64,000 nucleotides of DNA from SAR86 cluster bacterium (lineage in GTDB: Bacteria > Pseudomonadota > Gammaproteobacteria > Magnimaribacterales > Magnimaribacteraceae), in the NCBI GenBank assembly GCA_029268615.1, contig JAQWNM010000001.1, forward strand, positions 1 to 64,000, read 5' to 3'. This document shows, in pieces, positions 26,658-45,202 of the stretch (position 1 is the first letter of the stretch; the number at the start of each line of letters is the position of its first letter). The position numbers and the translations under genes are program-made. Below the pieces are notes generated by a model. The model was not told the origin of the DNA. It saw only the letters and a list, made by a program, of their open reading frames with translations, and made no database searches.

Positions 26658-27704
26658 CTAAAATCTATCAATAGCTTCTTTATATTCCGACCATTGCCCC
26701 ACATCTGTCCAATCCTGCTCTCCTATAGGATAAACTCCAATTTTTTTATCCATATTTCGTGACATTTCGAGCAACTCAGGAAAATCAAAAAAAGAATCTT
26801 TAGGGATTAAGTCTATCATATCTGGATTTATCACATACAAACCAGTGTTCACTAAGAAATCGAATACAGGTTTTTCATCAATTGAACTAAGAGACCCTTC
26901 AGAGTTTAGTTTACAAGTCCCATAAGGAATTACATATTCTTTGGCTGAAGCAACTAAAGTAATATCATATTGATTCTTTATATGAAAAGAATATAGATCA
27001 TTATAATCAGCCTTGATTATAATATCGCAGTTGGTCATAAAAAAAGGAATGTCTATTCTTGAAGGCAATAAACTTAAACTTCCTGCTGTACCTAAGGGTT
27101 TATCTTCTTCTATGAAAGAGACATTATAATTAGGATTAAGCTCTTGAAAAAAAGCTTTTAAGATTTTACTTTTATAATTTACGCTCATATAAAATTCGTC
27201 AATTCCTATATTCGTAAATTCGGTAATTATATGCTCAATTATTGTCTTATTATTAACAGGCAGAAGTGGCTTAGGAAGAACATCTGTAAAAGGTTCCAAA
27301 CGCGTACCCTTTCCACCAGCCATAATAACTACAGGGACTTTTAATTCCTTGTTAGGTGTTTGTTTATCCTCAAATATATCAGCCCATAACAAAACTTTGA
27401 CAACTTTTGACTCACTATCTACTATTGGTATCAGATCATATCTATTAGTAATAAATATATCTTTTGCCCTTTCAGGATTGAAAGCTCCATCTTGTAAATA
27501 AGTTGAATTAGGATTGTAATATTTATTAATAGAAGAATTTAAGTCCTCCTCTTTGATAATAGCTTTTCTAACATCTCCATCTGACAGAGTCCCCAAAAGA
27601 AAATTATTATTATCAACAACGACTAAACATTTCTGGCCTGCTTTATGTATTCTTTTTAAAGATTCTTTTATGGAGGCATCAGGATTTATAAGAAATTGTT
27701 TCAT
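26658..27704 (-). CDS. CBS-domain sugar-1-phosphate nucleotidyltransferase (PtmE-like)
   Basis: 348 residues. Two CBS motifs fill the first 115 residues (GTLSDGDVRKAI is in the first). The nucleotidyltransferase domain starts with VVIMAGGKGTRLEPFTD and LPKPLLPVNNK (about 125-152), then FMTNCDIIIKADY. This fusion is known from enzymes such as Campylobacter PtmE, which makes GDP-glucosamine, and catalytic domains of this type also make GDP-heptose (HddC). With a SIS isomerase 68 bases upstream, a GDP-sugar is plausible. Substrate not established. Confidence 0.87.
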   Translation of the reverse strand: MKQFLINPDASIKESLKRIHKAGQKCLVVVDNNNFLLGTLSDGDVRKAIIKEEDLNSSINKYYNPNSTYLQDGAFNPERAKDIFITNRYDLIPIVDSESKVVKVLLWADIFEDKQTPNKELKVPVVIMAGGKGTRLEPFTDVLPKPLLPVNNKTIIEHIITEFTNIGIDEFYMSVNYKSKILKAFFQELNPNYNVSFIEEDKPLGTAGSLSLLPSRIDIPFFMTNCDIIIKADYNDLYSFHIKNQYDITLVASAKEYVIPYGTCKLNSEGSLSSIDEKPVFDFLVNTGLYVINPDMIDLIPKDSFFDFPELLEMSRNMDKKIGVYPIGEQDWTDVGQWSEYKEAIDRF

Positions 27705-43901: not shown

Positions 43902-43988
43902 TGGTGCCCGGGGCCGGACTCGAACCGGCACGAAGTTTCCTTCGAGGGATTTTAAGTCCCTTGTGTCTACCAATTCCACCACCCGGGC
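43902..43988 (-). tRNA. tRNA-Leu (TAA)
   Basis: The minus strand has an acceptor stem GCCCGGG/CCCGGGC, the long variable arm CGAAGGAAACTTCG expected of class II tRNAs, anticodon stem AGGGA/TCCCT with loop CTTAAAA (anticodon TAA) and the TTCGAGT T loop. CCA is encoded at 43902-43904. It follows tRNA-Cys by 39 bases. Its 3' end faces the polysaccharide block. Confidence 0.96.
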
Positions 43989-44027
43989 ATTTAATTTGCT
44001 AAAGCAGACAAAAAAATTAATACCTTG

Positions 44028-44098
44028 AGGCTGGGGTCGGAATTGAACCGGCGTTGACGGATTTGCAATCCGCTGCATTACCACTCTGCCACCCAGCC
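44028..44098 (-). tRNA. tRNA-Cys (GCA)
   Basis: Acceptor GGCTGGG/CCCAGCC, anticodon stem GCGGA/TCCGT with loop TTGCAAA (anticodon GCA), T loop TTCAATT, and discriminator base U73, an identity element of tRNA-Cys. The CCA is not encoded here (TCAAGG follows the acceptor), unlike the other two tRNAs of the window, so CCA addition by the nucleotidyltransferase is required. The uvrC-pgsA-tRNA-Cys-tRNA-Leu neighbourhood is also found in Pseudomonas. Confidence 0.96.
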
Positions 44099-44172: not shown

Positions 44173-44508
44173 CTAATTGTCTGATTTTTGAAGCTGCTTA
44201 CACATCTTTTCTAAATCTTTAATTTCTTGAGTAAGATTTCTATGCTCTTCTAACTTAATTTTTAAGAATTCAAGAGTTAGTCTAGATTTTTCATCTATTC
44301 CTTTTGGGGTAAAAAGATAGTGATAGGCAAGTTTATTCTTATTATTTTTAAAGTTATTTATTTTTATAAAACCCTTATCTATCAATGATTTAATACAGTA
44401 GTTTACCTTGCCCAAACTGATACCTAATAGCCTAGCAAGATCTCTTTGAGTTATATCAGGGTGATCTGCTATAGAGTTAATGACCTTTAATTCTATTTCT
44501 TCTTTCAT
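44173..44508 (-). CDS. MarR-family EPS-associated transcriptional regulator
   Basis: 111 residues. The winged helix-turn-helix is seen in HPDITQRDLARLLGISLGKVNYCIKSLIDKGFIK (core QRDLARLLGISLGKVNYC, about 21-38), followed by the wing with KNKLAYHYLFTPKG and a C-terminal coiled-coil helix (about 80-108) for dimerisation. This matches the short MarR-type regulators found next to exopolysaccharide loci (TIGR04176). AGGA precedes the ATG. Three palindromes in the upstream gap are obvious candidates for its binding sites. Confidence 0.88.
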   Translation of the reverse strand: MKEEIELKVINSIADHPDITQRDLARLLGISLGKVNYCIKSLIDKGFIKINNFKNNKNKLAYHYLFTPKGIDEKSRLTLEFLKIKLEEHRNLTQEIKDLEKMCKQLQKSDN

Positions 44509-44530
44509 TTTCCTACGTCTCTTAATAAAT

Positions 44531-44542
44531 AGCTACCGCACT
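44531..44542 (-). promoter_or_regulatory. ops-like element for RfaH-type antitermination
   Basis: The minus strand reads GTGCGGTAGCTA around 44531-44542, containing GCGGTAGC (44532-44539), eight consecutive bases of the E. coli ops element GGCGGTAGCGTG. It lies 24 bases before the MarR ATG, in the probable leader of the polysaccharide transcript, and the RfaH-like gene is the next gene upstream. A small inverted repeat ACTAC-N7-GTAGT (44540-44556) precedes and touches it. The position fits recruitment of the RfaH-like factor to the elongating polymerase. Confidence 0.6.
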
Positions 44543-44575
44543 ACATAAAAAGTAGTCAGAATTATTTCTATTTAC

Positions 44576-44590
44576 GTTCATCAATTGTAC
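44576..44590. promoter_or_regulatory. operator-like palindrome, copy 1 (imperfect)
   Basis: GTTCATCAATTGTAC fits GTTCA-N5-TGAAC with one mismatch in the right arm. It is the copy nearest the MarR gene and is spaced 40 bp from the next copy. Confidence 0.5.
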
Positions 44591-44615
44591 GTATTTATGA
44601 ATCTAATCTAATTAT

Positions 44616-44630
44616 GTTCATAATATGAAC
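44616..44630. promoter_or_regulatory. operator-like palindrome, copy 2 (perfect)
   Basis: GTTCATAATATGAAC has perfect 6-bp arms (GTTCAT/ATGAAC) around three bases. It is 40 bp from copy 1 and 42 bp from copy 3, close to four helical turns each, so bound proteins would lie on one DNA face. Confidence 0.65.
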
Positions 44631-44657
44631 ACAAAAAAATGAATTATGGACCATAAC

Positions 44658-44672
44658 GTTCATAAAGTGAAC
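44658..44672. promoter_or_regulatory. operator-like palindrome, copy 3 (perfect arms)
   Basis: GTTCATAAAGTGAAC has perfect 5-bp arms around five bases. It lies 18 bases beyond the stop of the RfaH-like gene and farthest from the MarR gene. A local MarR-type regulator is the simplest candidate ligand. Confidence 0.6.
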
Positions 44673-44689: not shown

Positions 44690-45202
44690 CTAAATGAGAT
44701 CCTTTGAATGCATTGTTACCTTGGCATATTGGCTTGCGAAATTGATTAACAACTCTACCCTATCTTTGCCCAGTTCTTTTTGAAATATAGCTTCACTACC
44801 TACAAAAGATCCTCCAGAAATATTCACTACATCTCCTTTCACATACTGAGGATTATTATCATAAGTGCCAATAGATTCACTATCACAATTATCTTTGATG
44901 TATTTTATAAACTCCCCAGATATCTTTGCAGGTTTTCCACCAAATTCAACTATCTTATTAACTCCTTTAGTTGAACGTATTTTTAACCAATTTTCTTCTT
45001 CTAAATCTAATGAAATAAAAATATAGCCTGGAAACATAGGTTCTATTCTTTCTTTTAATTTCTGATTTATCCTCTTTAATACTTTTAATTTTGGAAAAAA
45101 AATATTAAATCCCTGATTTATTAGATTGTTTTCAGCTATATCTTCTTGTCTTGGTTTTGCAAAAATAACAAACCAATGAGAAGTGTCTTTAGTTTTCGTC
45201 AC
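44690..45202 (-). CDS. rfaH: RfaH/NusG-type transcription antiterminator, GTG start
   Basis: 170 residues. The N-terminal NGN domain has HWFVIFAKPRQEDIAENNL (about 9-27), FFPKLKVLKR and RIEPMFPGYIFISLDLEE, all typical of RfaH. The KOW-type C-terminus is KGDVVNISGGSFVGSEAIFQ. Such specialised NusG paralogs load on polymerase at ops sites and suppress pausing and termination in long cell-surface operons. The start is GTG with AGGGG ten bases upstream, and 14 bases overlap the pgsA end. The adjacent ops-like element and polysaccharide locus support the role. Confidence 0.9.
   Translation of the reverse strand: MTKTKDTSHWFVIFAKPRQEDIAENNLINQGFNIFFPKLKVLKRINQKLKERIEPMFPGYIFISLDLEEENWLKIRSTKGVNKIVEFGGKPAKISGEFIKYIKDNCDSESIGTYDNNPQYVKGDVVNISGGSFVGSEAIFQKELGKDRVELLINFASQYAKVTMHSKDLI

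Follow-up and report, generated by a model that had tools for sequence, protein, structure and literature searches.

The three GTTCA-N5-TGAAC palindromes that precede a MarR-type regulator gene in the window (the whole stretch of 64,000 nucleotides that we analyzed) are most likely the cognate operators of that regulator, MarR_EPS, which would use them to repress its own gene, marR, and a polysaccharide cluster before an RfaH-like factor is loaded at an ops element in the same leader. Because the palindrome precedes nearly every copy of the regulator that we examined, in several phyla, the window copies are very probably landing sites of the adjacent protein. The features involved, from the cluster to the neighboring rfaH-like gene, are the following.

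13384-43880, minus strand: co-directional polysaccharide cluster of ~30 kb, the presumed regulated operon, recognized by gene content
43902-43988, minus strand: tRNA-Leu (TAA), after marR and before the polysaccharide genes
44027-44098, minus strand: tRNA-Cys (GCA), in the same interval
44173-44508, minus strand: MarR_EPS regulator gene marR (TIGR04176), 111 aa, recognized by profile and structure matches
44529-44539, minus strand: ops element GCGGTAGCTAT, present once in the genome and the expected recruitment site of the RfaH-like factor
44540-44556, minus strand: short hairpin with ACTAC/GTAGT arms, immediately preceding the ops element
44576-44590, minus strand: operator 3, one mismatch; GTTCATCAATTGTAC on the forward strand, GTACAATTGATGAAC on the minus strand
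44616-44630, minus strand: operator 2, exact; GTTCATAATATGAAC on the forward strand, GTTCATATTATGAAC on the minus strand
44643-44671, minus strand: weak candidate sigma70 promoter TTCACT-17-CATAAT, by itself no better than shuffled background
44658-44672, minus strand: operator 1, exact and farthest from marR; GTTCATAAAGTGAAC on the forward strand, GTTCACTTTATGAAC on the minus strand
44690-45202, minus strand: rfaH-like gene encoding a NusG paralog of 170 aa

A pattern search of the window recovered the palindromes as the initial annotation had described them, with starts at 44576, 44616 and 44658, the first having one mismatch and the other two being exact, and with start-to-start distances of 40 and 42 bp, or 3.8 and 4.0 turns at 10.5 bp per turn. 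They sit in the 181-base gap between the start of marR (44508, minus strand) and the stop of the rfaH-like gene (44690), and all the genes around them (marR, the rfaH-like gene, pgsA and uvrC) are carried on the minus strand. The GTACA variant seen in operator 3 recurs in Turneriella (L135). When up to two mismatches were allowed, the window held 28 matches against 27.9 expected; this is the background frequency, so the count alone proves nothing and would suit palindromes that arose by chance in AT-rich DNA. With at most one mismatch, five sites were found in the 64 kb, three of which are the palindromes. Scored with a matrix derived from other genomes, the window excluded, the three palindromes reached 18.5, 16.1 and 15.9, while the next-best site (26873, within a CDS) scored 10.4 and the top scores of ten shuffled windows ranged from 6.1 to 12.8. 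These scores, well over those of shuffled sequence, and the conservation of the palindrome in more than 100 loci already refute chance or AT-richness as its source, an origin that the initial annotation had also thought unlikely and to which we assign a negligible probability.

The 111-aa product of marR matched NCBIfam TIGR04176, titled “MarR family EPS-associated” transcriptional regulator, with 140.4 bits (curated cut-off of 88; model positions 2-102 of 105) and also passed the Pfam MarR models PF01047 (30.2 versus 24.6 bits) and PF12802 (34.7 versus 27 bits). AlphaFold modeled the protein as a winged helix (mean pLDDT of 87; 51 sequences). MarR-family dimers are built from helices on both the N- and the C-terminal side of the winged helix; the monomer model has one long C-terminal helix (residues 68-110) and lacks a helix on the N-terminal side. 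The best Foldseek matches to the model were MarR-family structures, including FabT-DNA and SlyA-DNA. Five residues of the presumed recognition helix (S31, G33, K34, N36 and Y37) were invariant in the 51 sequences, as fits one conserved DNA target. Further, the association of TIGR04176 with polysaccharide biosynthesis genes holds here, where the ~30-kb co-directional cluster lies beyond the two tRNA genes.

The initial annotation had proposed a scan of the genome and its relatives for GTTCA-N5-TGAAC, with a lack of conservation counting against its reading; the scan placed the palindrome upstream of nearly all family genes. Among the 40 loci obtained from relatives and class searches, 37 carried an exact copy within 500 bp upstream. 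Another 79 loci, 78 of them in named public genomes and one on a viral contig, had an exact copy within 1 kb upstream in 70 cases and within 1 kb downstream in none. These further loci include members of the Leptospiraceae and other Spirochaetota, a deltaproteobacterium and Syntrophobacterales, some of them from metagenome bins in which the contig may be misassigned. Pooled, 108 of the 119 loci that encode a TIGR04176 relative have the exact palindrome within 1 kb upstream. The 11 exceptions comprise three whose exact site is farther upstream (1.1-1.7 kb), apparently where the operon begins, three with one mismatch, one with a 4-base spacer, three cut by the contig end, and one (L006) without a site. 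In two genomes (G408 and G201; L092 and L093) a distance of 1-1.6 kb and an intervening gene separate marR from the upstream operator, rfaH and ops, and in L132 other genes likewise stand between the operator and marR. This arrangement suggests that the operator marks the promoter of the operon rather than the marR gene itself. The exception without a site (L006 / L090, genome G020) has an intact marR_EPS after an amidotransferase-like gene, with polysaccharide genes following and no operator, ops or rfaH within reach; it is the sole relative of this kind. The contig from a viral collection (L180, IMGVR_UViG_3300008735_000095) carries marR_EPS with an exact operator and ops, and is perhaps a misassigned bacterial contig or cargo.

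Alignment of 104 non-redundant sites gave the consensus YGTTCAAYNRTTGAACR, written Y-GTTCA-A-Y-N-R-T-TGAAC-R. The outer Y is present in 95% of the sites and the outer R in 97%; neither was part of the search pattern, and they thus provide an independent check on the operator. All three window sites obey both. The centers of the half-sites are 10 bp apart, one helical turn, as expected of a winged-helix dimer. A good sigma70-like promoter was predicted in 77 loci; in 60 of them (9 expected) the -10 hexamer begins 5-18 bases ahead of the operator, so that the operator covers the predicted transcription start, which is the position of a repressor. Across the family, then, the element is by predicted position a repressor operator on the transcription start. 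Loci L012-L014, from the same taxonomic order as the window, show the geometry plainly, as in the TTGACT-17-TACAAT-A-GTTCAAATGTTGAAC of L013. The candidate promoter of the window places the -35 within operator 1 and the -10 between operators 1 and 2. We looked for an intrinsic terminator in the 181-base gap and found none.

Site counts tied the palindrome to genomes that bear the gene. In 51 such genomes we counted 132 exact sites versus 56 sites of the reversed pattern, whereas 50 genomes without the gene had 102 exact and 104 reversed-pattern sites, which is no excess. The initial annotation had regarded binding by a global regulator with many sites elsewhere as evidence against its reading; the whole 1.77-Mb genome holds four exact copies, two of them in this gap. 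As the other two fall in the T-arm of a tRNA-Arg gene and in the interior of a CDS, the MarR_EPS regulator looks, from the placement of its sites, dedicated to one promoter in this genome. We rejected a genome-wide regulon here on the same grounds, the near-match at 26873 also lying inside a CDS.

A single site is the rule. Of 104 loci, 6 had further sites close by: the window, with spacings of 42 and 40 bp, four genomes belonging to the same family, with 33 bp in each case, and Aestuariicella, with 43 bp. An evenly phased tandem array was thus discarded as a general architecture. Exact tandem pairs occur in 5 of 369 genomes of the class and 5 of 203 genomes of the order, the window genome being counted in both, and nearly all are at these regulator genes. 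Pairs from the class and order genomes that precede genes of a sister family of ~200-aa homologs are spaced by 30, 30 and 34 bp, and one exact pair (G371, 33 bp) has neither a MarR_EPS nor a sister-family gene in view. Overall, pair spacings are mostly 30-34 bp, with some of 40-43 bp. Where the pairs are 33 bp apart, the first operator overlaps the -35, the space between the two operators holds the -10, and the second operator starts ~12 bp downstream of the first base of the -10. With one operator on the -35 and one on +1, the near-integral helical spacing may reflect promoter geometry, cooperativity, or both. Thus, the helical phasing from which the initial annotation predicted cooperative binding holds for the spacing in the window but does not generalize, since most loci have one site and promoter geometry fits equally well.

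The ops element, with its GGTAGC core, lies between the operators and marR. Such elements combine a pause and a DNA hairpin that load RfaH onto long operons (PMC7593976), and the window has one at 44529-44539 in the leader of the presumed target operon, as an RfaH-controlled operon should. Of 104 family leaders, 31 have the octamer GCGGTAGC (or GGCGGTAG) in the stretch from operator to gene. Permuted octamers averaged 0.2 in the same leaders, and the highest permutation (21) is probably explained by overlap with the wider ops consensus. The neighboring 170-aa protein scored below the RfaH cut-offs (141.1 versus 144.5 bits for TIGR01955 and 110.7 versus 124 bits for PRK09014), yet these were its best family match and we call it RfaH-like. 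Its gene adjoins the marR leader in the window and in most loci of the same order, and an rfaH relative is present within ~6 kb in 17 of the 52 named loci that are longer than 9 kb.

The cluster at 13384-43880 encodes nucleotide-sugar enzymes, glycosyltransferases, a Wzz-like protein, a flippase and an asparagine synthase. Relatives have the gene order uvrC-pgsA-tRNA-Cys-tRNA-Leu-rfaH-operator-ops-marR-polysaccharide genes. The tRNA genes lie between pgsA and rfaH in L082-L085, L088 and L089, versus after marR in the window. Because two tRNA genes separate marR from the polysaccharide genes, it is not certain that one transcript covers both: the window tRNAs could be transcribed either from a promoter of their own or as part of the regulated transcript, in which case the presumably essential tRNA-Cys and tRNA-Leu may be inside a regulated transcript. 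The ops element, the rfaH-like neighbor and the displaced tRNAs had all escaped the initial annotation.

From these arrangements we infer a two-step control of the ~30-kb cluster, at initiation and then at elongation. A MarR_EPS dimer would read one GTTCA half with each recognition helix and occupy the promoter and transcription start in the operon leader, repressing initiation for its own gene and for the polysaccharide cluster. A signal, perhaps a polysaccharide intermediate, would release the repressor. The escaping RNA polymerase would then meet the ops element (44529-44539) and load the neighboring RfaH-like factor to finish the long co-directional cluster, reading through the two tRNA genes on the way. 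The initial annotation had already named the adjacent MarR-type protein as the probable binder, controlling its own gene and the polysaccharide genes, and this proposal is now strongly supported at the sequence level by family-wide conservation, the placement of the operator over the predicted transcription start and the lack of excess sites in genomes without the gene. Points against repression followed by RfaH-like loading are the weak promoter prediction in the window, the imperfect operator 3, the gene without a site in L006 (G020), the two intervening tRNAs and the rfaH-like protein that falls under the RfaH cut-offs.

Other readings of the palindromes account for less of this evidence. 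MarR_EPS could activate transcription, or act both ways depending on which operator is filled, if operators 1 and 2 were upstream of a start near operator 3; the three sites do span ~100 bp and the window promoter cannot be placed with confidence, but the family operator is just after the -10 and over the start, where binding blocks the polymerase, and we consider activation unlikely. Palindromic operators of about this size serve many regulator families, which is what would recommend an unlinked regulator as the binder. The motif, however, follows marR_EPS across phyla, shows no excess in genomes that lack it, and has too few copies per genome to suit a global regulator, all of which make a second, unlinked protein quite improbable. 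Less probable still is that the palindromes work as RNA or DNA hairpins, for instance by terminating the rfaH transcript or structuring the leader, instead of as protein sites. They are inverted repeats downstream of rfaH in the window, but the gap yielded no terminator-like site, rfaH is not upstream in many loci, and the 5-bp arms of fixed sequence, the constant spacer length and the unselected flanks speak for contacts with a protein. Repression by the cognate regulator thus agrees best with the family-wide pattern.

The window protein is a member of TIGR04176 above the cut-off, encoded at the head of a polysaccharide cluster. In the literature that we searched, mostly outside subscription journals, no operator or target of this family is described. 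Its arrangement resembles that of autoregulated MarR-family repressors (MarR, SlyA, FabT and MexR) in the winged helix, the palindromic operator over the promoter and the inclusion of its own gene in the regulated unit. Unlike them, proteins of the window family are shorter (~105-111 aa) with one long C-terminal helix, the model of the window protein has no extra N-terminal helix, the operator sequence is different and the system is coupled to ops. The leader likewise resembles those of E. coli-type RfaH/ops operons, with a GGTAGC core in a long polysaccharide-operon leader, a hairpin before it and a NusG paralog nearby; in contrast to these, a local MarR operator shares the leader, the RfaH-like protein is just below cut-offs, and the ops of the order to which the window belongs is GCGGTAGCTAT rather than GGCGGTAGCGTGC. 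An E. coli capsule for which SlyA, a MarR protein, is combined with RfaH is an analogue. Autoregulation through MarR operators and control by RfaH/ops are both familiar; the operator of TIGR04176 and the way in which it is paired with ops appear to be new. Phage sensitivity, grazing and biofilm formation are determined by surface polysaccharides, and it is now possible to name the probable DNA target of a little-studied family that regulates such sugar coats. With a named operator, the regulated promoter can be found in hundreds of genomes, transcription starts can be predicted and the signal can be searched for, while the coupling to ops and RfaH makes the control of initiation and elongation of one operon jointly testable.

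The operator code extends, as far as upstream sequences tell, past the named family. Homologs under the TIGR04176 cut-off, of ~200 aa, combine the winged helix with a C-terminal part that has no Pfam match. These homologs (L184-L201, in genomes such as G271, G409 and G087), with the winged helix ALGLANSYLKRC, also have GTTCA-N5-TGAAC upstream; we had chosen them to control for specificity, expecting another site, but they turned out to share the motif and so do not serve that purpose. The spacers differ at their ends: sister-family spacers have T or C as the first base and A as the last, versus A first and T last in TIGR04176 sites, and T...A ends were present in 7 of 20 sister-family versus 4 of 116 sites (Fisher p = 0.0001). 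We consider it somewhat more probable than the contrary that TIGR04176 and its ~200-aa sister family use one code, YGTTCAAYNRTTGAACR, in several phyla, with about a third of the loci under a two-step RfaH/ops lock and one surface-polysaccharide cluster controlled per genome. One locus (L183, 2095-4155) encodes a 687-aa protein in which a MarR_EPS-like winged helix is fused to ATP sulfurylase and APS kinase, with an operator upstream, in a genome that also encodes a normal MarR_EPS. The fusion hints at a link to sulfated polysaccharide.
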